Below, in pieces: positions 1-41,261 of a stretch of DNA of 64,000 nucleotides. Position 1 is the first letter of the stretch, and each line of letters starts with the position of its first letter. The position numbers and the translations under genes are program-made. Source of the DNA: an uncultured Actinomycetes bacterium (GTDB taxonomy: Bacteria > Actinomycetota > Actinomycetes > Nanopelagicales > Nanopelagicaceae); NCBI GenBank assembly GCA_903873185.1, contig CAIQNN010000023.1, positions 1-64,000 on the forward strand. Direction: 5' to 3'. Under the pieces are notes generated by a model that saw only the letters and a list, made by a program, of their open reading frames with translations, ran no database searches and was not told the DNA's origin.

Positions 1-96
1 CTGGCGCAGGAGTAGTTGGCGCTGGCGCAGGAGTAGTTGGCGCTGGCGCAGGAGTAGTTGGCACTGGCACTGGCGCAGGAGTAGTTGGCGCTGGTG
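1..96. repeat. 21-bp coding minisatellite
   Basis: About four copies of a 21-bp unit (starting CTGGCGCAGGAG) lie head to tail. A 6-bp partial unit separates copies three and four. The array continues to the left edge of the window. It is inside the FMN-binding protein gene and, read on the minus strand, encodes a Pro/Ala/Thr heptad linker of the PAPTTPA type. Because the unit is a multiple of three, copy-number change would alter linker length without a frameshift. Confidence 0.85.
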
Positions 97-967
97 TCGG
101 CGCAGGATTAACAATTATTAAGGCTGAAGCACCGAGGGTTCTGCCAGCAGCGGCTGCTTTCGAGATTGCAGATGAAAGTGAAGATACCCAAGTGTTTGAA
201 ACATCTGTATTCCCTGAGACAGAAACAGGAGCGATGTTAGCGCTTTGTGCTGCCAATGCTTCGGATCTCAAAGTCGGAAATATGGACTGGTCAGTTGTAC
301 TCACGCCTGAAGCGGCGGTTGAAATAGAGGTCATCTGGAACTTTCCGCTTACAGATCCCACAACTATTGACACGGTAATGGTGCCACCATTTGGGTTCTG
401 AAGTTGATTTCCGGTATACGAAGCGGGCGCTGCCGTTGCGGTGGTGGATGGAGCTGGTGCTGGAGTGGTAACAACAGGAGCCGGAGTGGTAACCACAGGT
501 GTTGGAGTTGGTGCTACAACTACTGCAGCTCCAACTGTGTGACCAGCAGTAGCTGCTTGTGCAATCGCGTCCTTCAATGAAGTGATCCAAGAAGTCGAGA
601 TTGTCGTCGCACCTGAAACGGAGTTGATTGTGGCACTTTGGGCCGCCAGCGCCTCAGTTTGTAAAGTAGCCCCTGAATGCCAGTTCGGATTATTTGGAGT
701 GATTGGGTTATTTAAATACTTATCATTTTGGGAGCCAACTACTGGTTGAACCGGGGTGGTTACGGCAGTTATCTTGTTGGTTCCAGTGCTGTTGTCAACG
801 GTGATCGCGACCTGAACGGATGAAGTCCCACCCGACTCGTTGTAGGTTTTAAGAATTCCGGTGTATGAGAAAGTCGCTGCGGCGGCTGGTTGGAGTTGGA
901 CCAGCTCCAAAATCGTGAGTGCGCCCATGGCGGAGGAGCCGACTACTTTTCTAAACGTCGAGGCCAC
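1..967 (-). CDS. Exported protein with two FMN-binding-like domains (3' end outside window)
   Basis: An open frame runs from a GTG at 967 to the window edge (322 codons visible). The start is supported by a GGAG ribosome site about 8 bases upstream and by an N-terminus that matches the next gene (ASTFRKVVG versus ATTFKKVVG). After a short hydrophobic export segment ending near residue 31 comes an FMN_bind-like domain with the SGAT flavin-attachment-type motif near residues 118-121. A Pro/Thr linker follows, then a second similar domain with the variant SGNT, then another Pro/Thr/Ala linker encoded by the minisatellite. In known FMN_bind proteins (NqrC, RnfG) ApbE joins FMN to the Thr/Ser of this motif outside the membrane. 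Likely role: extracytosolic electron carrier with the genes upstream. The family call rests on the motif and paralogy, not on an alignment. Confidence 0.72.
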   Translation of the reverse strand, partial: MASTFRKVVGSSAMGALTILELVQLQPAAAATFSYTGILKTYNESGGTSSVQVAITVDNSTGTNKITAVTTPVQPVVGSQNDKYLNNPITPNNPNWHSGATLQTEALAAQSATINSVSGATTISTSWITSLKDAIAQAATAGHTVGAAVVVAPTPTPVVTTPAPVVTTPAPAPSTTATAAPASYTGNQLQNPNGGTITVSIVVGSVSGKFQMTSISTAASGVSTTDQSIFPTLRSEALAAQSANIAPVSVSGNTDVSNTWVSSLSSAISKAAAAGRTLGASALIIVNPAPTPAPTTPAPVPVPTTPAPAPTTPAPAPTTPAP

Positions 968-1159
968 TTAGGACTCCAATCGCTGGGGAAACTAATATAA
1001 AAGCGTAAAAAATATAAAATAAATTACACTTTTACGCAATAGATATTAAGCTCAAGGAAGTTCCACATCTCTTTTCAGGGATCTGTAGAGTGTAGACGCT
1101 AGAGGCAAAACATCACGTTTCTGTCATGGAGTATTCGCAAATTTCTCTTTTTAAAGAAT

Positions 1160-2272
1160 TTACTTGCCGTTCATAATCGTGAAGCCGGCCGGGCATTTGA
1201 CCACAAATGCCTTCACAATCTTCTTTGTCGTCTTCCCCCCGACCGTTTTGGCACAGGTAAAGGACTTCTTTATGACGATCCCGGTTTTGACGGCAGTCAA
1301 GGCAACTGACTTTGTGGGAGTCGGAGTAGCCAGCGCCGCCGCTGAGGCTTTGGCATCGGCCATTAACTTGTCCGCCGAGGCTTTGGCATCGGCATATAAC
1401 TTGTCGGCTGCAGCCTTTACCGATGCGTAGTAATCCGCGATGGCTTGGTTGGTTAGTGCAGTTAGCTTGCTTAATTGATTATTGACGTTATCGACATAAG
1501 TTTTAAGTGCAGCCGGCGATGATGGTGATAGCGAAGAATCACTCTGTACTTGGGCTTGCAATGTATAGAGCACGCTACGAGCGTTGGCGATCGAAGAGCT
1601 TTTAACATCTTCACCGCCACCTCGTGACAATTGCGAAATCACATATGAAATTTGAGATAGGTAACTACTTAAATCCAGAGTCGATGTTGAACTGGAGGCT
1701 GAATAAGCCGGCAACACAAAAGGAGTAAAAGTTGGAGCAACACCTACCGAAGTTGGAACTATTGAAGATGTTGGCGTTGGTGGTTTGGTTACTGCAGGTG
1801 TGGTGGTGGCAACCGTAGGCGTTGGGGCTGGCGTAGTGACCGTTGGAGTTGGAGTTGCGGCAACCAAACTCGCGGATTGGCCGATGGGATTGCCAGCAGC
1901 AGTTGCGGCGCTGATTGCCGAAGAAAGTGAATTTTTCCAAGCTGCAGAGATTTGGGAAGCGCCGGAAACGCTCTGAACATTTGCACTTTGCGCTGCTAAA
2001 GCGGAACTAGTCAAAGTTGGAATTGCATAAGATGCATAAGAGCCATTTTGGCCGCCTGGTTGAACTGGTGTTGAGATGTTGGTGATTCGGTAAACGCCAC
2101 TGGCACCATCAACTGTGATTGAAACTTGAACACTGCCACCGCGTGGATTGGAGTAAGTGGCCCCGGCAAAATTCATTGGAGCAGCTGAAGCCTGCTGCAA
2201 TTGCAGCAAATCCATTAATGTGATCGCTCCGATCGCCGAAACTCCAACGACCTTCTTAAAGGTGGTAGCCAC
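1160..2272 (-). CDS. Exported FMN-binding-domain protein with helical C-terminal part
   Basis: This 370-residue protein starts with a hydrophobic export segment (residues 1-31, ending ASAA). An FMN_bind-like domain follows to about residue 115, with the SGAS motif at 103-106. Then come a Pro/Thr linker (about 135-190), a helical and Ala/Lys/Asp-rich segment (about 200-310) and a short tail with two cysteines near the C-terminus. It is a paralogue of the downstream gene and probably lies in one operon with it and with the ferric-reductase-like gene. The Ser/Thr of the SGAS motif would be the flavin attachment site if ApbE modifies it, but no apbE lies in the window. The helical region may anchor or oligomerise the protein; that is inference. 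Confidence 0.72.
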   Translation of the reverse strand: MATTFKKVVGVSAIGAITLMDLLQLQQASAAPMNFAGATYSNPRGGSVQVSITVDGASGVYRITNISTPVQPGGQNGSYASYAIPTLTSSALAAQSANVQSVSGASQISAAWKNSLSSAISAATAAGNPIGQSASLVAATPTPTVTTPAPTPTVATTTPAVTKPPTPTSSIVPTSVGVAPTFTPFVLPAYSASSSTSTLDLSSYLSQISYVISQLSRGGGEDVKSSSIANARSVLYTLQAQVQSDSSLSPSSPAALKTYVDNVNNQLSKLTALTNQAIADYYASVKAAADKLYADAKASADKLMADAKASAAALATPTPTKSVALTAVKTGIVIKKSFTCAKTVGGKTTKKIVKAFVVKCPAGFTIMNGK

Positions 2273-2390
2273 TTTTTGCTCCTATAACTAGGGATCCTAA
2301 TTATAAAGCGCAACAGGTCGAGTAATAGTTACATATCAGGGCAAAGCACACCCACTTCAGCGGCTATTCACACTGAATTCTAAGAAGTGC

Positions 2391-3026
2391 TTACAAACCA
2401 GCTTTCGCAAGTGCGCTTACGAGCGAGTCATACCAACCCTGTGAGGTATAGCTGGCTCCGCTTACTCCTTGGATATCGGAAGATTGAGCGGCCAAGGTCT
2501 GGCTGATCAATAAGGGAACGCTGGACTCATTTAATTGGATGTCATAAGGCTGTGCGGTTGGCAGTTGCAACGCTGAGACATCAACAATCTTGTTGTTGAC
2601 TACTTTTATTTGAACTTGAACGGGTCCATAGACGGTCTTAGAAACGGCACCGGCGAAAGTTCCGTTAACCGCCGCAGCCTTGGCAGGCTTCGTCTTCTTT
2701 GGAGCGGGCTTTGGCGCCGCCTTGGTGGCCTTCGGTGCTGGGGTTGTGGCTTTGGCGGCTGGGGTCGTCTTCTTCGGTGCTGGGGTTGTGGCTTTGGCAG
2801 CCGGAGTTGTCTTCTCAGTGGTGGGAGTTGGAGTGGCGGCAACGGTCTCGGTTGGCGTGGCTGCGGGAGTATCGGTAGCGGCAGGCGTGGTTTTAGCTAC
2901 CCCACCAGAGCCTTTGAAGCCACCCGCGCCAAAACTGGAGGTCTGATGAGGTGGCTGGTAGGCCAAAACGGCACCTAAGCCACCCACTGTGCCAACTGCG
3001 ATCAGCGCTGCTTTAGTTACGCCCAT
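2391..3026 (-). CDS. Small exported FMN-binding-domain protein
   Basis: 211 residues. A hydrophobic N-terminal segment (about 5-23) acts as signal or anchor. Residues 45-118 form a low-complexity Thr/Pro/Ala/Lys spacer with repeated KATTPAPK blocks. Residues 120-211 are an FMN_bind-like domain ending in VSGASYTSQGW, where SGAS (189-192) matches the flavinylation motif S-G-A-S/T. It lies 27 bases after the ferric-reductase-like gene on the same strand, so the two are probably co-transcribed. The long charged spacer would let the flavin domain reach away from the membrane. Likely partner: direct electron acceptor of the transmembrane reductase (inference from adjacency). Confidence 0.78.
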   Translation of the reverse strand: MGVTKAALIAVGTVGGLGAVLAYQPPHQTSSFGAGGFKGSGGVAKTTPAATDTPAATPTETVAATPTPTTEKTTPAAKATTPAPKKTTPAAKATTPAPKATKAAPKPAPKKTKPAKAAAVNGTFAGAVSKTVYGPVQVQIKVVNNKIVDVSALQLPTAQPYDIQLNESSVPLLISQTLAAQSSDIQGVSGASYTSQGWYDSLVSALAKAGL

Positions 3027-3053
3027 TGCTTCACGAACCTTTCTGGAGAAGTA

Positions 3054-4385
3054 CTAGCTAGCATGAAATTCAAAGACCTCGGTATGGAAGCGCTCCTTAG
3101 GGATGCCACAGGCAATTGTGGCATCTCGGACCGCTTCGACAAGAGGGGTAGGACCACAAACATAGACATCGCAGTACCTGAAATCTGGCACATAATGCAT
3201 GATGTCTTTGGCGGTCATTGGGTGGCTCTTACGCGAGCCAACTAAATAGTGAACCCTGGCACCACGACGTCTCGCCAGCGCTTCTAAATCGCGGTTAAGA
3301 ATAATTTCATCTTCATTCGATACTCGGAATAAAAGATCAATATCAACGGCATCATCAAAATCATCGAGCAGTGCAACAAGCGGGGCGACACCAACGCCGC
3401 CACCAATTAAAACAACGTGGCCGAGGCCGCGAGTAACAGTCTTAGCGGTGAAAATTCCGTAAGGACCTTCAAAAAATACTCGAGTGCCAGGTTGTAAGTG
3501 GCGAACCGAACCGGAGCCATCTCCGAGATTCTTAACAGTAATTCTAAATTCCGTACTGGTTGGCGTTGCCGATAATGAGTACGGATGTGAAACCCATATA
3601 TGCCCAGGCGTTAGGAAACGCCAAGCGAAGAATTGACCGCCCCATGCTTTCATTCGATCGAGTTGGCGGCCAGTCATAACAATGGAAACCATATTGGCGC
3701 CTTCATCGACAATCTTTTCAATACGCAGTTGATGGCGGTAGAAACGAAATACTGGAATTACGAAACGCCAATAAAGAACTATGAATCCAACGATCGCGTA
3801 TAGGCCGTACCAGTAATAGCGATAGATCGCGTGGGTGAGAAACATCGGCCCCGTACGAATTTGATGCATGAAGCTAAGCGAAATTCCTAAGTAGGTATAA
3901 AGATGTACCGTCCACCAAGTTTCATAGGACATCTTTTTTCGTACCTTTTTATACGAGGTCAATCCGGCGACGACGAAGAATATGAAGCCAACAGTTGCCG
4001 CAAGCATCCAGTCATAGGTCCAAGTAAATTTCCAAAGCTCGCCACCGACGCGCGATCCATCGTTACCGGCATAGCCCAGTGAAACAAGCAGTACGTGAAA
4101 TCCAATTAAGAAAAGTGAGTAAGGACCAAGCTTGCGATGCCACAAGATCAAGCGATCGTGGCCAACAGCTTTCTCGATCCACGCGATTCGCGAGACCATA
4201 ACCATGCCAACAAGTGCGAAGTAAGTTCCAACGAGTGCGGCGATACGTGAGATCGAAAGAATCAGCGGGTAAGGCCAGACCCAATCGTGTGAGGTAGATG
4301 TTGTTACAAAAATTCCAAGGGTCAACCCAAGGCCGATACCTAAAATTAGGTTCGCAGAATTGTGAGTTACGTCAGCACGTTTCAA
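3054..4385 (-). CDS. Ferric-reductase-like transmembrane flavohaem protein
   Basis: 443 residues. The N-terminal half has about six membrane helices with two His pairs at haem spacing (H83/H97 and H161/H174), as in the ferric reductase/NADPH oxidase family. The cytosolic half has the FAD motif HPYSLS (267-272), the nucleotide-binding GGGVGVAP (328-335) and CGPTP (410-414). The predicted job is to move electrons from NAD(P)H through FAD and two haems across the membrane. The three following genes encode exported FMN-domain proteins, the likely acceptors. The start is a TTG at 4385 with no strong ribosome site. Substrate (iron, quinone or another oxidant) is not shown by the sequence. Confidence 0.85.
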   Translation of the reverse strand: MKRADVTHNSANLILGIGLGLTLGIFVTTSTSHDWVWPYPLILSISRIAALVGTYFALVGMVMVSRIAWIEKAVGHDRLILWHRKLGPYSLFLIGFHVLLVSLGYAGNDGSRVGGELWKFTWTYDWMLAATVGFIFFVVAGLTSYKKVRKKMSYETWWTVHLYTYLGISLSFMHQIRTGPMFLTHAIYRYYWYGLYAIVGFIVLYWRFVIPVFRFYRHQLRIEKIVDEGANMVSIVMTGRQLDRMKAWGGQFFAWRFLTPGHIWVSHPYSLSATPTSTEFRITVKNLGDGSGSVRHLQPGTRVFFEGPYGIFTAKTVTRGLGHVVLIGGGVGVAPLVALLDDFDDAVDIDLLFRVSNEDEIILNRDLEALARRRGARVHYLVGSRKSHPMTAKDIMHYVPDFRYCDVYVCGPTPLVEAVRDATIACGIPKERFHTEVFEFHAS

Positions 4386-5607: not shown

Positions 5608-7347
5608 ATGTTTGTTCTCTATGGTGTTGCATTCCTGGCTGGGTTGCTGACCATACTCGCGCCATGTATTTGGCCATTGTTGCCAATTGTTCTAGCCGAT
5701 GTCTCACAGACAAAGAGTAGAAAACGCCCGTTAGGGATAACGCTCGGTGTGGCAATTTCATTCACAGTTCTTACGCTTTCAATATCGGGGCTAGAAAGTT
5801 CGCTTGGACTAAATCCAAATGTTCTTCGCAAACTGGCGGTAGTTGTACTTGTAGTTCTTGGAATATCTATGGTCATTCCAAAAGTATCGCAAAAATTAGA
5901 ATCAACTATTAGCCGATTCTCCGGCATCTTAGGCAGCGTTGGAAAGAATAGTCGGAGCGACTTTCGCGGCGGCTTTATTACTGGTTTAGCGCTCGGCGTT
6001 GTTTGGGCTCCTTGCAGCGGCCCGATTCTCGCTTCGATTGCGACGCTTGCGGCAACTAACAAAGTTTCATTGCAGGTAGTTTTCGTAACTCTGTTTTATG
6101 TAGCTGGCGTATCCATCCCGCTCTTTGGTTTTGCCGTGGGTGGACAAAAGATTTTGGCGCGGTCGCGGTGGATTTCTAAATACACCGGCAAGATTCAAAT
6201 TGCGTCCGGTGTGGTCCTGATTCTTACCGCAATTGCGATTTACACTAATTACGACAAAACACTGGAAGCTAATCTCTTGAACGCAATACCTTCTTATAGC
6301 AGCGCCCTTACAAAGATAGAGGGCACAAAAAGTGTCACTAAGGCACTGGATAAATTAAAGGGCCGAGCAAGTAACAACCCTGGGTATCAAGATAATTCTT
6401 CGTTATTCAATACAAGGACGCCAGCTCCGGGATTCGCCGGTGGAACTGATTGGCTCAACCCAACCACTCCGTTAACTTTGGCCTCACTTAAAGGGAAAGT
6501 GGTCTTGGTAGATTTCTGGACTTATACCTGCATCAATTGCATTCGCACCTTGCCGCATGTAACCGCCTGGTACAACAAGTACCATTCCTACGGTTTTCAG
6601 GTTATCGGCGTGCATGCTCCAGAGTTTGCCTTTGAAAAAGACAAGGGCAACGTTCTGGCCGCAATTGCGCGCTTCAATATTAAGTATCCAGTGGTTCAAG
6701 ATAACGATTTGAATATTTGGAATGACTACAACAATCAGTATTGGCCAGCGGAATACTTAATCGATGCAACCGGAGTTATCCGTCGCGTCGATTTTGGTGA
6801 AGGTCAGTACGATCAAATGGAGAAGGCAATTCAGACCTTGTTATTAGATAGTGGTGCCAAGGCACCAACTTCATTGATTAGCGCTGCGGATTTGACCCCT
6901 AAGAAGCGCACCACCCCGGAAACCTATTTAGGCAGTGATCGTGCCCAGTATGGCTACCCACAAACGATAAACATTAACGGTCAACGCAATTTCAACGCGC
7001 CAAAATTTACGCCACCAAACCTCTTCTCCTTTGGGGGCAATTGGAATATCCAGAGCCAATATGCGCAGGCTAGCGCTGGTGCAACCCTTGCGGAAAGTTT
7101 CTCCGCGTACCATGTCTACATAATTCTGAAACCTCATAAAGAGGGTGCGGTTGATCGAGTAAACGTGACGCTAAACGGGAAACCATTGGCAGGCATTTCC
7201 GCCGGGGCAGATGTACATAACGGAATAATCTCAGTTGATTCCGATCGCCTTTACAATATTTATAGTTCAAATTCGTTCGGTCCAGGTCTTCTCAAATTTA
7301 CTTTCCAAGATTCAGGTACCCAAGCATTTACTTTTACCTTTGGCTGA
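5608..7347 (+). CDS. dipZ: DipZ-like thiol-disulfide protein (CcdA + thioredoxin-like + C-terminal domain)
   Basis: 579 residues in the mycobacterial DipZ order. A CcdA-type membrane part (about 1-215) carries the two conserved cysteines in APCIWP (C19) and APCSGP (C136). A periplasm-side thioredoxin/TlpA-like domain (about 275-425) has the CINC redox pair at C308/C311 within WTYTCINCIRTLP. A C-terminal beta-rich domain (about 430-579) matches the position of the CBM-like domain of mycobacterial DipZ. It passes reducing power across the membrane to extracytosolic thiols, for instance in cytochrome c maturation or oxidase assembly. The gene stands alone, divergent from the aldo/keto reductase and convergent with the TetR-GNAT gene. 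Confidence 0.9.
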   Translation: MFVLYGVAFLAGLLTILAPCIWPLLPIVLADVSQTKSRKRPLGITLGVAISFTVLTLSISGLESSLGLNPNVLRKLAVVVLVVLGISMVIPKVSQKLESTISRFSGILGSVGKNSRSDFRGGFITGLALGVVWAPCSGPILASIATLAATNKVSLQVVFVTLFYVAGVSIPLFGFAVGGQKILARSRWISKYTGKIQIASGVVLILTAIAIYTNYDKTLEANLLNAIPSYSSALTKIEGTKSVTKALDKLKGRASNNPGYQDNSSLFNTRTPAPGFAGGTDWLNPTTPLTLASLKGKVVLVDFWTYTCINCIRTLPHVTAWYNKYHSYGFQVIGVHAPEFAFEKDKGNVLAAIARFNIKYPVVQDNDLNIWNDYNNQYWPAEYLIDATGVIRRVDFGEGQYDQMEKAIQTLLLDSGAKAPTSLISAADLTPKKRTTPETYLGSDRAQYGYPQTININGQRNFNAPKFTPPNLFSFGGNWNIQSQYAQASAGATLAESFSAYHVYIILKPHKEGAVDRVNVTLNGKPLAGISAGADVHNGIISVDSDRLYNIYSSNSFGPGLLKFTFQDSGTQAFTFTFG

Positions 7348-7387: not shown

Positions 7388-8632
7388 CTAGGCATTCTGT
7401 TTGACGTAAGTGCGAGTGCTCGGACTTTCGACAAAACCAAGTCGTTTCATAATTGCTTGACGATCTGAAATTAGGTGATCGTTAGTTGATCTGAAGCTAC
7501 GAATTCCTTTATTTAGATTACTGAGAATTGCATACGAAACCAACGCAGTGCTTAAACCTTGCGACCGGTGCTTTCGATTAATAATGCAAATGCCGAACTT
7601 TGCTTGGGTTGGTGTTGAAACTACCTGGATATATCCAACTAATTCGGAGAGAACGAAGGCGCCAAAGATCTTGGATTCAGCGTTCCAAAGCTCCGAAATC
7701 GTTTCTAAGTTTGGTAACTGGTCTTCGGCATTATCTTCGTAATTAGGAAAATCGGAATTAGCGATGGTTAAAGCCAAAATCTCTTTTGCGAATTCTGGTC
7801 CAATTGGTTCAATTAGGTACATCTTTCGTGCGGAATTCAAGTAGCTTTCTGAAAATAGATTTAGTTCAGAGGTGGGTAAAAAATCCAAGCGAGATCTACG
7901 GATCTCCGAAGTTAATACATAATCATCTCGTTCGAGTTCCTGACATTTCGAATCGGATGAGAGAAGTACGACTACCTTGTCATTTGTTGAAACACGTTCG
8001 CCGTTCTTCGCAATATTCAGATTATCAAAGAAGATCGTGTCAAATACAAAGATTAGCGTTTGGATCCAATCAGCAGTGTCAATATGTTTAGTTGCATTGT
8101 CGTCAACCACTCGGCCAATTATGGTTGACTGAAGCAAAACTGAAACTGCGCGCGCATCTAAATTGTGCTTTGTCCAACCTCGCTCGACGCAAATGTTATA
8201 TATCCGCATCCATTTTTGGGTTAACTCTTCTTGAACTGGCGCAATTCTTTGGCGCATCCGCTCATTTGTTGCTGCGGTGTAAGTTATTTGAAATCGTTTG
8301 AGCCGGAACGATAACGAGTCGGTAAATTGCTCTGATAAAGCCAGCTCGTGGAAACTTCGTCTAACTAAAATCGGATCGGTATTATTTTCTACATATGCAA
8401 TCAAATCTTCCAAGGTTTCCCGCACATAATTTGAAAAACGTCTGACCTGGGCGGCCTCCATCAAGTCGCTGAAATCTGCATAATGGTGATACAGCGATCC
8501 CTTGCTGAATCCAGACTCGATGATAATTTGCTCGCTAGTAATTGAATCAAAAGGCTGACTCTCTAGAAATTGAATCGCCACACTAAGCAGCCGGTCCTTG
8601 GTTGACTCGCCCAAGACCGCCGCTTCGCTCAT
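7388..8632 (-). CDS. TetR-type regulator fused to a GNAT acetyltransferase domain
   Basis: 414 residues. Residues 10-60 are a TetR DNA-binding domain with the helix-turn-helix ending SGFSKGSLYHHYADF. Residues 65-205 look like a TetR ligand/dimer domain, ending near DTIFFDNL. After a linker, about 265-414 resembles a GNAT fold, with the acetyl-CoA loop HRSQGLSTAL (355-364, R-x-x-G pattern) and MKRLGF near the end. It is a full-length paralogue of the gene at 16112-17332 and its TetR half also resembles the one at 21102-21728. It may be a repressor whose acetyltransferase half senses or modifies a ligand; that is inference. One continuous frame, no sign of frameshift. No clear palindrome was found upstream. 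Confidence 0.82.
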   Translation of the reverse strand: MSEAAVLGESTKDRLLSVAIQFLESQPFDSITSEQIIIESGFSKGSLYHHYADFSDLMEAAQVRRFSNYVRETLEDLIAYVENNTDPILVRRSFHELALSEQFTDSLSFRLKRFQITYTAATNERMRQRIAPVQEELTQKWMRIYNICVERGWTKHNLDARAVSVLLQSTIIGRVVDDNATKHIDTADWIQTLIFVFDTIFFDNLNIAKNGERVSTNDKVVVLLSSDSKCQELERDDYVLTSEIRRSRLDFLPTSELNLFSESYLNSARKMYLIEPIGPEFAKEILALTIANSDFPNYEDNAEDQLPNLETISELWNAESKIFGAFVLSELVGYIQVVSTPTQAKFGICIINRKHRSQGLSTALVSYAILSNLNKGIRSFRSTNDHLISDRQAIMKRLGFVESPSTRTYVKQNA

Positions 8633-16111: not shown

Positions 16112-17332
16112 CTATTCACTCCGTGCAAAAGTTTGGGTATTCACCTGCTCGACGAAGCCCAAGTTAGTCAATAAATTGATTGGGGAGAGATTTAGAACTT
16201 CGCCACTAGCGACAAACGAGTGGAAACCTTCATTAATTTGAATCATCAGCATATAGGCGACTACTGCGGTGCAAACTCCCTTTGATCGATGATCGGAACT
16301 AACGTAGCCACGGCTGATGACTAGTTGCCCATTCAGCCGATTAGCATTTACAACACCAACCAATACTCCATCGCGAAAGGCGCCGGCAACGACAGAATTT
16401 TCACTCCAGGTCTTTTCCACTTCTCTAAAAGTCAAGGAGCTGACTTCAGAAATATCACTGTTCCGGAATAAGTCGGTCACCTCACCCAAATATTCTTGTC
16501 CCAGAAGTTCGATTTGATAAAGGTTGTAGATAGCCTTCAAATAGTTCTCAATCAAGTTAGAAATATCTGGATTTTCATTTACCTTAAGCTCACTAGACAA
16601 ATATTCCGATTCCAACATAAATCCCGCCGAAAGCAATTCGGCTGCTTTTGGATCTCCAGCATTAAGAATTATTAAAGGGTCCTGACTAGATTGACTATTC
16701 GTAGACGATAATGTGCGATTCAGATTACCAAAGAAGAAGGTATCAAATATAAGGGCCATCGCCTTTGACCACTCAGTAGGGGTTACTTGGTTGGAAGAGT
16801 TGTCGTCAATGACTCGCCCCATGATTACCGATTGAATTATTATGGATGAAGCCCTGGCGTCCAGATAACTACTGGCCCAACCTCGAGCGAGGCAGATATC
16901 AAAGATCTGCATCCATTTAGTTGTTAAACGTTCCTGCGCTGGAGCAATGAGATCTCGCATTCGATCATTTGAAGAGGCATGGAAAGACAGCCTGATCAGC
17001 TTATTTCGAAGTCTCTTTGATCCCGTAAATTGTGGGGAGCTCGCGAAAAAGTGGAATTTTGATCGCACTCTGATTGGGTCGTCAGTATCACTAACGAATT
17101 GAAGAACCTCTTCAACTGCACCGTCAACAAAATTGGAAAAAATTAGGGCCTGAGCAGATTCTAAGAGTTCGGAGAAATCATGATAGTGATGGTAAAGCGA
17201 GCCCTTACTAATTTCGGCTTCAGCTAATACTTTCGCACTTGTCAGTTCCTCAGGTCGCCACTCTTCTAATAATTTCACAGTCACTTCAAGCAGGTGTTCT
17301 TTGGTGGTAGGAAGCTGTTCTAATTGCTGCAT
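16112..17332 (-). CDS. Second TetR-GNAT fusion regulator
   Basis: 406 residues with the same layout as the protein at 7388-8632. A TetR helix-turn-helix sits near residues 28-55 (EISKGSLYHHYHDF), then a TetR-like helical core to about 205, then a GNAT-like region. That region has the acetyl-CoA loop DHRSKGVCTAV and ends TNLGFVEQ. The start is well supported: GGAGG lies 6 bases before the ATG. Immediately upstream are a good promoter and a 16-bp perfect palindrome over the expected transcription start, pointing to autoregulation. The neighbouring membrane-protein gene is the best candidate target. Confidence 0.84.
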   Translation of the reverse strand: MQQLEQLPTTKEHLLEVTVKLLEEWRPEELTSAKVLAEAEISKGSLYHHYHDFSELLESAQALIFSNFVDGAVEEVLQFVSDTDDPIRVRSKFHFFASSPQFTGSKRLRNKLIRLSFHASSNDRMRDLIAPAQERLTTKWMQIFDICLARGWASSYLDARASSIIIQSVIMGRVIDDNSSNQVTPTEWSKAMALIFDTFFFGNLNRTLSSTNSQSSQDPLIILNAGDPKAAELLSAGFMLESEYLSSELKVNENPDISNLIENYLKAIYNLYQIELLGQEYLGEVTDLFRNSDISEVSSLTFREVEKTWSENSVVAGAFRDGVLVGVVNANRLNGQLVISRGYVSSDHRSKGVCTAVVAYMLMIQINEGFHSFVASGEVLNLSPINLLTNLGFVEQVNTQTFARSE

Positions 17333-37185: not shown

Positions 37186-38577
37186 GTGAATGCATTAGAT
37201 CTTGCCCGTTGGCAGTTTGCAATTACCACGGTCTACCACTTCATCTTTGTGCCGATCACGATCGGCTCGGGATTCTTGGTGGCTGGATTGCAGACCGCTT
37301 GGTATCGCACCCAGAAAGAGAAGTATCTGCGCGCGACCAAATTCTTTGGAAAACTATTTTTGATTAACTTTGCGATTGGTGTGGTTACAGGAATCGTCCA
37401 AGAGTTCCAATTTGGAATGAACTGGTCGGCTTACAGTCGATTTGTTGGAGACATTTTTGGTGCTCCGCTGGCGATGGAGGGCTTGCTTGCCTTCTTCCTA
37501 GAGAGCACCTTTTTGGGGCTATGGATCTTCGGTTGGGATCGGTTGTCGAAGAAAGCTCACCTGGCTTCAATTTGGGTTGCAGCTTTTGGAACCCTATTCT
37601 CGGCCTACTTCATTTTGGCAGCGAATGCCTTTATGCAACATCCAGTTGGTTACACCATGAATGTGGAACGAGGTCGGGCAGAACTAACCGATATCGTTAA
37701 AGTCTTAACGCAAAATACCGCGGTCGCTGCTTTCTTCCACACGATTCCATCGGCCTTCTTAACTGCCGGCGGTCTATTTGCTGGTGTTGCAGCATGGATG
37801 ATAGTTCGCAAGCGTGATGTCGAAGTTGCAAAGCCGGTTTTGAAGATGGGTCTGGTAACTATCGTTATCGCCTTCGTGGTTGTTGGGATTACCGGTGACT
37901 GGACGGCACGAGTCATGACTACTCAACAGCCAATGAAGATGGCCGCTGCTGAAGCTGCATATGACACCAAGTCGAACGTTCCTTTCTCGCTCTTAACGAT
38001 CGGAACCTTGGATGGCGCTAAGCCAGTCTTCCAAATTGGGCTACCTTCCGTTCTCTCCTTTATGTCCACTGGAAATTTCAATGGCGTAGTTGAAGGGGTA
38101 AATGATCTTCAGGCTCAATATGTGAAGAAATATGGTCCAGGGGACTACAAACCTAATATTCCATTGGCTTATTGGGGCTTCCGCTTAATGATCGGATTCG
38201 GCGCTTTGGCTGCGCTATTCGCGGTCATTGTCTTGGTTGGGATTCGCCGAGGGCGCTCCCCGTCAGGTAAATGGTTCTTGCGCGGCGCGATTGCGCTGCC
38301 ATTCCTGCCAATTTTGGCTAACTCATTCGGTTGGATCTTTACCGAAAGCGCTCGCCAGCCTTGGGTTGTCTTTGGTTTGATGAAGACTTCGGCCGGCGTC
38401 AGCCCAACCGTAGGAGCAGGAAGCGTCGCATTCACGATGATTGCCTTTACTTTGCTCTACGGCGTACTTGCAGTAATTGAGTTCGGATTAATGATCCGCA
38501 CTATCAAGGTTGGACCAGAACCAATTGCGGTTGCTGGGAAAGCCGATTCCGATTCCGTATTAACTATGGCTTACTAA
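37186..38577 (+). CDS. cydA: Cytochrome bd ubiquinol/menaquinol oxidase subunit I
   Basis: 463 residues, GTG start with an AGGAG site. Haem ligand H18 (TTVYHFIFVPIT) and H185 (AAFFHTIPSAF), and the two Glu of the di-haem region (E98, E106 in AMEGLLAFFLES), are present. QPMKMAAAEA begins the quinone loop, which is short, as in most actinobacterial and Bacillus enzymes. Catalyses O2 reduction by quinol at low oxygen without pumping protons. First gene of cydABDC. Confidence 0.96.
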   Translation: MNALDLARWQFAITTVYHFIFVPITIGSGFLVAGLQTAWYRTQKEKYLRATKFFGKLFLINFAIGVVTGIVQEFQFGMNWSAYSRFVGDIFGAPLAMEGLLAFFLESTFLGLWIFGWDRLSKKAHLASIWVAAFGTLFSAYFILAANAFMQHPVGYTMNVERGRAELTDIVKVLTQNTAVAAFFHTIPSAFLTAGGLFAGVAAWMIVRKRDVEVAKPVLKMGLVTIVIAFVVVGITGDWTARVMTTQQPMKMAAAEAAYDTKSNVPFSLLTIGTLDGAKPVFQIGLPSVLSFMSTGNFNGVVEGVNDLQAQYVKKYGPGDYKPNIPLAYWGFRLMIGFGALAALFAVIVLVGIRRGRSPSGKWFLRGAIALPFLPILANSFGWIFTESARQPWVVFGLMKTSAGVSPTVGAGSVAFTMIAFTLLYGVLAVIEFGLMIRTIKVGPEPIAVAGKADSDSVLTMAY

Positions 38578-38583
38578 GGGGTG

Positions 38584-39630
38584 ATGAAAATGTCATTAAA
38601 TTCTTTCTGGTTCGTGATCATCGCCGTTCTTTGGGTCGGCTACTTCATTCTTGAAGGTTTCGACTTTGGTGTCGGAATATTGTTAAAGGTTGTGGCAAAG
38701 GATCAAGCTGAACGACGAGCAGTTCTCACAACCCTCGGACCGCTATGGGATGGTAACGAAGTTTGGCTACTTGTAGCCGGCGGCGCCACCTTCGCAGCAT
38801 TTCCAGAGTGGTATGCCACGCTCTTCAGTGGCTTCTATTTGCCGCTCTTTTTAATTCTCATTTCGCTAATTGTTCGCGGCGTGGCCTTTGAATATCGCAG
38901 TAAATATGGCAAGGCGCAATGGCGAGGCAATTGGGATACCGCAATCATGATCTCTAGCGCGATACCGGCGATTCTTTGGGGAGTCGCCTTCACCAATATC
39001 GTGCATGGTGTTCCACTAGCAAAGAGCAGTGCTGGCGTAATCGAATACACCGGCGGATTCTTCAACTTGCTAAATCCATTTGCACTTCTGGGTGGACTGA
39101 CTACCTTCGCGCTCTTTGCTACTCATGGCGCATTTTTCTTGGCGCTAAAAACCGATGGCGTTATTCGTCAACGAGCAAATGCAGTTGCGCTAAAGATTGG
39201 TTTAGTTACTGCCGTTCTGGCTATTGCTTTCTTAGCCTGGACTAATCACCTGGTAGCTAAGACTGATGTTCATATTCTCTCGTTGGCTATCGTCATCATC
39301 TGGGTTGCAGCTTTGGCTGCACACCGAATGGGCCGAGAAGGGTGGGCCTTCTTGGCTTCGGCCATTACCTCTGGCTTAGTGGTAATAACCCTCTTCGCGG
39401 CGTTGTATCCAAATGTGATGCCAAGTTCGACCAATCCAGCTGATTCGCTGAATATCTTCAACGCTTCCAGCACTCATTACACGCTCAAAGTAATGACTTA
39501 TGTGGCTGTAGTGTTGACGCCAATCGTCCTGATCTACCAAGGTTGGACTTATTGGATCTTCCGAAAGCGCATCAGTGCTTCTAATATCGCTTCGCCAAAT
39601 AGCGGAGTTTTGGACAAAATACATCCGTGA
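38584..39630 (+). CDS. cydB: Cytochrome bd oxidase subunit II
   Basis: 348 residues. The N-terminus FWFVIIAVLWVGYFILEGFDFGVG-type block and WDGNEVWLLVAGGATFAAFP are diagnostic for CydB. AAGGGG precedes the ATG at 38584; GTG at 38581 is an alternative. About eight to nine membrane helices. Its stop overlaps the cydD start (GTGA), so the genes are coupled. Confidence 0.96.
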   Translation: MKMSLNSFWFVIIAVLWVGYFILEGFDFGVGILLKVVAKDQAERRAVLTTLGPLWDGNEVWLLVAGGATFAAFPEWYATLFSGFYLPLFLILISLIVRGVAFEYRSKYGKAQWRGNWDTAIMISSAIPAILWGVAFTNIVHGVPLAKSSAGVIEYTGGFFNLLNPFALLGGLTTFALFATHGAFFLALKTDGVIRQRANAVALKIGLVTAVLAIAFLAWTNHLVAKTDVHILSLAIVIIWVAALAAHRMGREGWAFLASAITSGLVVITLFAALYPNVMPSSTNPADSLNIFNASSTHYTLKVMTYVAVVLTPIVLIYQGWTYWIFRKRISASNIASPNSGVLDKIHP

Positions 39631-41261
39631 AACCTTTAGATCCGCGGCTACTTCGATATTCCAGAAGTAGTCGCGGATTTATTTTTGCCGAGGTAATTTT
39701 GGCGGCGCTCAATGCGTTGCTAATTATTCTGCAAAGCGCGGCAATCGTAGATTTAGTTTGCCGAATCTTTCAATCCCATACGACGGTGAGTCAGCTTCGC
39801 ACTCGATTCCTTTTAGTTCTCACATTTTTTGTTCTTCGAGGATTATTAAGCATTGGGTCCGAATACCTGGCGGCTTTTTCCAGCACTCGAATGCGCAATG
39901 AACTTCGGATTGGTTTGTTAGATAAAATTTTGGGCGGTCGCTCTCGTGCGATCTTCAAAGAAGGCCCAGCGACTATCTCATTGTTGGCAACTAAAGGGAT
40001 AGATAATTTAGATTCCTACTTCTCCAGGTTTTTACCACAGCTCTTCATTGCTGCGATAGTGCCGCTAGCAGTCGGGTTAACCATCACAAGCGAAGATCTC
40101 ATATCTGGCGCGATCGTCCTTTTCACTGTTCCGTTGATACCGCTCTTTGGCATATTGATTGGTCGCTTCACTGGCGCTGCTACCGAGAAGCGATGGCAGA
40201 CGATGTCGCTATTAAGCGGCTATTTTCTTGACCTCCTCTCTGGCTTGGCAACTTTGAAGGTTTTCGGTCGTTCCCGCAAACAAGAGGAGCGCCTCGAAGA
40301 GGTGGGGGAGCGATATCGCGCCGAAACCATGAAAGTTCTGAAAGTCTCGTTTCTATCTTCACTGGCGCTAGAAGTAATCGCCACGTTATCGGTAGCTTTG
40401 ATTGCAGTTTCGATCGGGCTTCGTTTAGTTGATGGGGGATTATCACTTCGAACAGGACTTTTTATCTTGGTTCTCGCACCTGAGGTTTATTGGCCAATTC
40501 GCCAGGTTGCGCTCTTCTTTCACGCCGCCGCAGATGGTGTCGAAGCGGCTAATCGAATCTTTGAAATTCTGGAAGAACCAGAAAGTGTTGGTGTAGAAGT
40601 TCTTGATACCGTTACCGAAATTGATTGGGACCAACTAACGGTGGAGTTTCCTGGCCGAGAAACACTTTCTATTCCAAGCGGGCGAATCTGCGCTGGTCAG
40701 ATCAATTTGATTACTGGACCTTCTGGGGCGGGCAAGAGCACATTTCTTTCCATCATATTGGGCTTCAACGATAATTTCATTGGGCAGGTACGGGTGCGTG
40801 CTGGTCAAAGTGAGTGTGAAATAAGGACCTTAGCGCCGACATCCTGGCGTCAGCAAATCTCTTGGTTACCTCAAGAAGTTAATTTTCCAGCAGCCACAGT
40901 TCGGGAAGTTTTACATCAAGGAAATCCAGACGCAATTGACTCCGAGTTAATACGACAGCTAAGTCGCGTTGGACTATCCCCGAGCGAGCTACCCAAAGGT
41001 CTGGATACAAAACTTGGAACTTTGACCGAGACGCTTTCGGTTGGGCAGAAGCGCAAAATCGCATTGGCGCGAGCCTTAATGAAGCCGGCAAGTATTCTAA
41101 TTTTGGATGAACCATCGGCATCCGTTGATGATGTGAGTGAAGCTGATATCGAGCAGGCAATAACTGAAGAGATTCAACGCGGAAAGATTGTCATCTTGGT
41201 ATCTCACCGGGTCAAATTAATGAGCGGGGAAAGCGCAATTTCATTTGGGGTGCGCTCATGA
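39627..41261 (+). CDS. cydD: CydD: ABC exporter subunit for cytochrome bd assembly
   Basis: 544 residues: an N-terminal ABC exporter membrane domain with six helices (about 15-300) and a C-terminal ATPase with Walker A GPSGAGKST, signature LSVGQKRKIALARAL (V for the usual G at one position), and Walker B ILILDEPSASVDD. With CydC it exports glutathione/cysteine-type thiols or binds haem for cytochrome bd assembly in characterised bacteria. GTG start overlaps cydB; stop overlaps cydC (ATGA). Confidence 0.92.
   Translation: MKPLDPRLLRYSRSSRGFIFAEVILAALNALLIILQSAAIVDLVCRIFQSHTTVSQLRTRFLLVLTFFVLRGLLSIGSEYLAAFSSTRMRNELRIGLLDKILGGRSRAIFKEGPATISLLATKGIDNLDSYFSRFLPQLFIAAIVPLAVGLTITSEDLISGAIVLFTVPLIPLFGILIGRFTGAATEKRWQTMSLLSGYFLDLLSGLATLKVFGRSRKQEERLEEVGERYRAETMKVLKVSFLSSLALEVIATLSVALIAVSIGLRLVDGGLSLRTGLFILVLAPEVYWPIRQVALFFHAAADGVEAANRIFEILEEPESVGVEVLDTVTEIDWDQLTVEFPGRETLSIPSGRICAGQINLITGPSGAGKSTFLSIILGFNDNFIGQVRVRAGQSECEIRTLAPTSWRQQISWLPQEVNFPAATVREVLHQGNPDAIDSELIRQLSRVGLSPSELPKGLDTKLGTLTETLSVGQKRKIALARALMKPASILILDEPSASVDDVSEADIEQAITEEIQRGKIVILVSHRVKLMSGESAISFGVRS

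Follow-up and report, generated by a model that had tools for sequence, protein, structure and literature searches.

How might electrons be passed from cytosolic reduced nicotinamide adenine dinucleotide (phosphate) (NAD(P)H) to flavins outside the membrane by a locus that lacks apbE, the gene for the transferase that attaches flavin mononucleotide (FMN) to its carriers? The question is raised by four minus-strand genes at one edge of contig C23 in the 1.63-Mb genome of an uncultured actinobacterium (65 contigs, 97.7% complete). The stretch of DNA analysed, called the window below, comprises the first 64,000 of the 64,530 bases of this contig, and its position 1 is the contig edge. An earlier note, made from the sequence of the window, had proposed an NAD(P)H-to-extracytosolic-flavin chain with several carriers. 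This proposal is supported by the domains of the reductase, by four FMN_bind homologues and by the presence of apbE in the genome. We consider it likely that the locus is a duplicated, apbE-less copy of an actinobacterial MsrQ-like system that would send electrons from NAD(P)H through the reductase to exported putative FMN carriers. An electron-export chain and a surface flavoprotein array would be an unexpected investment in a freshwater actinobacterial genome of 1.6 Mb.

The four genes were confirmed and encode, in leftward order, a reductase, an FMN_bind protein of 211 amino acids (aa), a 370-aa protein and a protein cut by the contig edge (Table 1). The reductase gene and the FMN_bind gene are separated by 27 bases, and promoter and terminator patterns were not above chance. 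The reductase scores 56 bits against Ferric_reduct (PF01794; cut-off 28) and 31.9 bits against NAD_binding_1 (PF00175; cut-off 22). The earlier description of a transmembrane protein with two His pairs and motifs for flavin adenine dinucleotide (FAD) and NAD was borne out by these matches and by the alignment of its homologues, in which His83/His97 and His161/His174 (spacings HX13H and HX12H) are invariant in 115 of 115 sequences. The same spacings are typical of NOX-type proteins and ferric reductases, and the two pairs are, by sequence, the predicted ligands of two b haems. The protein has the motifs HPYSLS, GGGVG and CGP, and the FAD (GQF, HPxSxS) and NAD (GGG, CGP) motifs are near-invariant across the same alignment. 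A simple hydropathy scan, in which six transmembrane helices were looked for, gave several hydrophobic segments. In the proposed mechanism, cytosolic NAD(P)H would give hydride to the FAD of the reductase and single electrons would then cross the membrane to its outer face by way of the two stacked haems; the motifs are present in the protein, and the path and its direction are taken from the family. The N-anchored 211-aa protein would accept the electrons on covalently bound FMN and hand them on to the secreted 370-aa and contig-cut carriers and to their paralogues on contig C2.

The identity of the carrier domains was established by several comparisons. The 211-aa protein, which has a hydrophobic N-terminus of the kind expected of an export signal, passes the FMN_bind profile PF04205 at 24.7 bits (cut-off 22). 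The 370-aa protein belongs to a group that we call stalk proteins, although its full-length AlphaFold model has a predicted local distance difference test (pLDDT) score of 46.6 and only hints at a helical stalk. HHalign comparison of the relatives' FMN_bind proteins with the set of stalk-protein domains gave a probability of 99.1% (E 7e-19), and comparison of the FMN_bind family with the least canonical window domain alone, that of site SGNT, gave 94.8% (E 5e-8). A profile of 46 stalk-type domains finds the Protein Data Bank entry 8p2a with an E-value of 1e-34. For the domain of the 370-aa protein, the AlphaFold model is confident (pLDDT 89.5), and its best Foldseek match is again 8p2a, the crystal structure of domain 2 of SaFMN3 (template modelling score 0.85 by target length, 1.6 A). 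Because of these profile and fold matches, all four window domains are, on sequence and model evidence, real FMN_bind homologues, in line with the four FMN_bind-like domains first noticed. The earlier note had let its proposal turn on a match to the FMN_bind profile; the proposal outlived this check, all four domains being homologues by HHalign and fold, and a single domain exceeds the cut-off of Pfam. The contig-cut protein carries two FMN_bind domains in one exported protein, one of them with a degenerate site, and alignment confirmed that two of the exported proteins have matching N-termini.

As stated before, apbE is absent from the window; MsrQ-like clusters typically have one, although this is not a strict criterion. 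It lies instead on contig C61, beside a paralogous reductase. Searches by family and by profile identified this as the single apbE of the genome, and the proposed chain thereby outlived the absence of apbE from the genome that the earlier note had named as fatal to it. The gene order on C61 is OmpA-like, reductase, FMN_bind and ApbE, followed by MacA-like, ATPase and permease genes of a MacAB-type transporter, the MacAB-type names coming from a reading of the sequences. A third FMN_bind protein is encoded alone on contig C12. For comparison, 80 loci from public genomes were kept, each encoding a relative of the window's reductase, and in most of them reductase, FMN_bind and ApbE genes lie in tandem. 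Seven loci (L009-L014 and L058) are of the window type, with a reductase identity of 75-79% in six and 67% in L058, and none of the seven has apbE (L013 ends early at its contig end). In five of these seven genomes, another retrieved locus, judged to be of the same genome by a shared contig prefix, shows the canonical cassette (L041, L049, L036, L031 and L019). In the reductase tree, the window's protein and six relatives form a clade with a support of 0.998 inside the reductases of the lineage. Since window-type loci lack apbE, five of their seven genomes show the cassette elsewhere and their reductases form a clade, the window locus is best read as a derived duplicate without its own apbE, with ApbE presumably acting in trans. 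The C61 ApbE would attach FMN to the window's carriers, most likely in the cytosol before export.

This location differs from that known for NqrC/RnfG, and their extracytosolic lipoprotein ApbE is no model for this genome: the C61 ApbE begins MTARHFLEFDTWGT, which leaves no space for a signal peptide. To judge how general this is, we collected 99 ApbEs with an upstream FMN_bind gene from the lineage and from a sample of other Actinomycetes families. The conserved ApbE core starts at a median of 13 nucleotides (nt) after the FMN_bind stop codon (n=99) and within less than 75 nt in 93 of them, and no leader-like hydrophobic stretch was seen in these short N-termini. Unlike ApbE, the carriers start with a hydrophobic N-terminal anchor or a signal sequence. 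Because ApbE has no leader, FMN is probably attached in the cytosol before export; this is the simplest reading, in which the order of events is deduced from leaderlessness. Such attachment is chemically feasible, since a truncated ApbE is functional in the cytosol of E. coli and a naturally cytosolic ApbE, with its substrate in the cytosol as well, occurs in Klebsiella (PMC12052999). An extracellular transferase has been assumed for the Streptomyces protein SaFMN3 (PMC10339131). The idea that a leaderless ApbE marks the reductase system only was ruled out, as about 19 of 20 ApbEs sampled outside the reductase cassette (L163-L182, other Actinomycetes) are leaderless too, so that a cytosolic location of ApbE may be the norm throughout the class Actinomycetes.

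The route by which a loaded domain would cross the membrane was considered from the N-termini of the carriers. TatC, of the twin-arginine translocation (Tat) pathway, is present in the genome. An RR pair precedes the hydrophobic core in 24/39 carriers of other Actinomycetes; KR is the usual pair in the lineage, and neither pair is found in window-type FMN_bind carriers. Since the lineage mostly has KR and the window-type carriers lack both pairs, Tat export of the flavin-loaded domain is put forward here only as a suggestion. When PMC8238504 was searched by terms, nothing on this point turned up.

Several observations weigh against the proposed chain. On PF04205 the 370-aa protein scores 13.7 bits, under the gathering cut-off of 22, and the contig-cut protein has no Pfam match. 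The attachment sites in the window are SGAS, SGAS, SGAT and SGNT, as first noted; three of the four fit [S/T]GA[S/T] and SGNT is degenerate. If the window carriers, which lack RR, are exported by the general secretion (Sec) pathway, passage of a flavin-loaded domain would be a difficulty. Finally, the Asp six residues before the attached residue, called fully conserved and essential for the Vibrio ApbE (PMC10722498), is missing at all four window sites, where the residue is Q, Q, N and V. In sites chosen by pattern, a few of which are possibly misread, this Asp is kept in 4/78 sites of FMN_bind carriers of the lineage (L015-L088), where Q, S and N prevail, and in 34/42 sites of other Actinomycetes. 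These counts suggest that either the lineage's ApbE recognises a different site or the Asp at -6 is not generally required.

Some of the same observations would be expected if the extra stalked carriers had lost their flavin and become structural or adhesive surface proteins, leaving electron transfer to the 211-aa protein only. A C2 paralogue carries a second degenerate site, SSAT, the usual Thr/Ser two residues past the site is replaced by Ile or Val, the Pfam scores lie under the cut-off and the paralogues form a repetitive array. However, SGAS or SGAT is retained in most copies, and in L009, L010 and L014 the reductase and FMN_bind genes are followed immediately by stalk genes, so that we find a general loss of flavin doubtful. 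SGNT and SSAT being degenerate, flavinylation need not occur at every domain, and we retain the reading of an electron chain with several flavinylated carriers.

The carrier array probably extends past the contig break. The first 135 bases of C2 are 94.8% identical to window positions 498-632, and three stalk proteins are encoded on C2 in the same direction: the terminal part of one, of which 376 aa are visible, one that is whole (375 aa) and a shorter one (215 aa) whose tail is charged. It also has a polyketide-cyclase/AHSA1-type gene (L109:8117-8620), and a similar gene lies directly behind the stalk gene in L014. From the identity at its start, the direction of its stalk genes and the AHSA1-type neighbour, C2 is therefore taken as the probable continuation of the array, a connection deduced rather than assembled. 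In one relative, the start of an FMN_bind protein runs into a 370-aa-type stalk without the FMN domain at a contig break (L113:1-418 (-) and L112:3-605 (+)), which could be a deletion or an assembly chimera.

The FMN domains of the stalked carriers would sit on Pro/Thr linkers and helical stalks, and a C-terminal tail would mark these carriers for the cell surface; the tail itself is plain in the sequences, and the surface is its presumed destination. The stalk proteins end in a cysteine-containing consensus, IKKTFTCVKTVGGKTT-K-VKG---KCPTGF, and a broader tail consensus is KSITCVKGK-TKKV-G--PKCP-GFK-K. The broader profile matches 15/18 listed genomes of the window's family, with at most 23 matches per genome (several of them, in a few cases, on the same protein), and 0/179 other genomes of the class sample. 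In the examples read, the tail is at the extreme C-terminus of proteins that mostly start like signal peptides. Copies include those at 1163-1279 (-) of the window, L195-L210, G000:C12:37508-37594, C12:39372-39461, C12:6628-6717 and C8:5133-5219, and no family in Pfam or NCBIfam covers it. As a guess from this distribution, the tail may hold proteins at the cell surface or in the envelope and is a candidate surface-sorting tag. The same tail also ends a single-domain FMN_bind protein in a different genus of the family, where it is encoded between truA and the ribosomal genes rplM-rpsI (L114:7891-8664 (-) and L115:9092-9889 (-)).

These features can be drawn together in a broader proposal, which we advance tentatively and hold at somewhat below even chances: ApbE-type transferases of Actinomycetes would be cytosolic and the loaded carriers exported by Tat or a tolerant Sec pathway, the transferase of this lineage would have lost the requirement for Asp, and a lineage-specific tail would fix the flavoproteins to the surface. 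If true, cytosolic attachment would remove the need for extracytosolic FAD and reverse the order assumed for NqrC/RnfG and Listeria. Cytosolic flavinylation in Actinomycetes is the most interesting point raised by this locus and reaches beyond it, as the leaderless ApbE makes testable where Actinobacteria attach flavin and how a loaded domain crosses the membrane.

Two suggestions for the fate of the exported electrons were weighed. An assimilatory metal reductase would serve uptake by reducing ferric iron (or copper) on the cell surface; the reductase shares its fold with ferric reductases, and the ferrous iron transporter VIT1 occurs in 153/1797 published MsrQ-like clusters (PMC8238504). However, the genes read beside the window locus, with the C61 cassette and among the relatives' conserved neighbours included no recognisable iron transporter. 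Nothing that we found points to iron, a possible role raised in the earlier note, and we regard uptake of metal as unlikely. Delivery of electrons to oxygen by the carriers, as an extracellular oxidase or oxygen sink, is still less probable. Domain 2 of SaFMN3 is the closest relative with a solved structure, and oxygen reoxidises the reduced protein at 1.2 per second (PMC10339131), but this reaction is slow and common to many free flavoproteins, and a linked peroxidase or other partner was not recognised in the locus. Three relatives encode a multicopper oxidase next to their window-type reductase, but it lies on the opposite strand and nothing in this genome matches it; it was ruled out as a general partner. 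In these relatives it belongs to a convergent three-gene set (L012:10000-17328 (-), also in L011 and L058) that includes a giant multicopper-oxidase-like protein (>1686 aa, Cu-oxidase_2).

Table 1. Features of the flavin locus in the window and the evidence for each.
Feature	Position	Strand	Evidence
Ferric-reductase-like (MsrQ-like) transmembrane protein, 443 aa, with C-terminal FAD and NAD(P)H domains	3054-4385	-	PF01794, PF00175, invariant His
FMN_bind carrier, 211 aa, N-terminal hydrophobic anchor without cleavage site, Ala/Pro/Thr/Lys-rich linker	2391-3026	-	PF04205
FMN_bind domain of the 211-aa carrier, site SGAS	2409-2627	-	PF04205 over cut-off
Secreted carrier with putative stalk, 370 aa, signal sequence, Pro/Thr linker, C-terminal tail	1160-2272	-	HHalign, AlphaFold domain model
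FMN_bind domain of the 370-aa carrier, site SGAS	about 1871-2176	-	HHalign and fold match
Predicted helical stalk of the 370-aa carrier	about 1337-1672	-	Low-confidence full-length model only
C-terminal tail KKSFTCAKTVGGKTTKKIVKAFVVKCPAGF of the 370-aa carrier, divergent copy of the family tail	1163-1279	-	Profile hits in this genome and its relatives
Secreted carrier with two FMN_bind-like domains, 322 aa visible, 3' end lost at contig edge	2-967	-	Open reading frame open at contig end, HHalign homology of its two domains
First FMN_bind-like domain of the contig-cut carrier, site SGAT	527-868	-	HHalign with domain set (99.1%), alignment
Second FMN_bind-like domain of the contig-cut carrier, degenerate site SGNT	95-418	-	HHalign alone (94.8%, E 5e-8)

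Other genes of the window were read in passing. Two genes from the flavin locus, on the other strand, 5608-7347 (+) encodes a fusion of a DsbD-type membrane domain, an AhpC/TSA-type domain and a thioredoxin-like C-terminal domain. The genes at 7388-8632 (-) and 16112-17332 (-) encode a paralogous pair with an N-terminal TetR domain in an unusual fusion; in the first, Pfam places a GNAT acetyltransferase domain at the C-terminus, with scores slightly below the cut-off, and the second is similar in sequence. Cytochrome bd oxidase subunits followed by a CydD-like ABC transporter, named from reading their sequences only, are encoded at 37186-41261 (+).

Among the papers listed by literature searches, none on flavinylation or extracellular electron transfer in this lineage was seen, and the locus can be placed among systems known elsewhere. 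MsrQ-like flavinylation systems comprise 1797 clusters and are broadly conserved in Actinobacteria (Meheust et al. 2021, PMC8238504), and multi-flavinylated proteins were described in the same work. By its gene and domain content, the core of reductase and FMN_bind protein is a member of these systems: a PF01794 membrane protein is fused to a PF00175 NAD domain and lies beside an exported FMN_bind protein. It differs from them in lacking apbE, which is presumably provided in trans from C61, in its extra stalked and tail-tagged carriers and in its two degenerate sites, of which the window holds one and C2 the other. SaFMN3 of Streptomyces azureus (PMC10339131; 8p2a) shares the fold and sequence of the FMN domain and the arrangement of several domains on flexible linkers, whereas the window domains are divergent, have lost the Asp of the site and are attached to a predicted helical stalk and a C-terminal tail. 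In the extracellular electron transfer of Listeria, electrons likewise reach flavinylated proteins outside a Gram-positive cell (PMC9973259), as predicted for the window carriers; unlike that system, the window locus has a bis-haem NAD(P)H reductase, and FmnB flavinylates outside the cell (PMC9973259) whereas the ApbE of this genome is leaderless. NqrC/RnfG, served by a lipoprotein ApbE, have an FMN_bind domain with an S/T-G-A-S/T site as well, but here ApbE is predicted not to be exported and the Asp at -6 is absent from the window sites; no Nqr/Rnf genes were seen among the genes read, and no search of the genome was aimed at them. Against these systems, what is new here is the apbE-less variant, the multigene array of stalked, tail-tagged carriers that escape Pfam and the degenerate sites.

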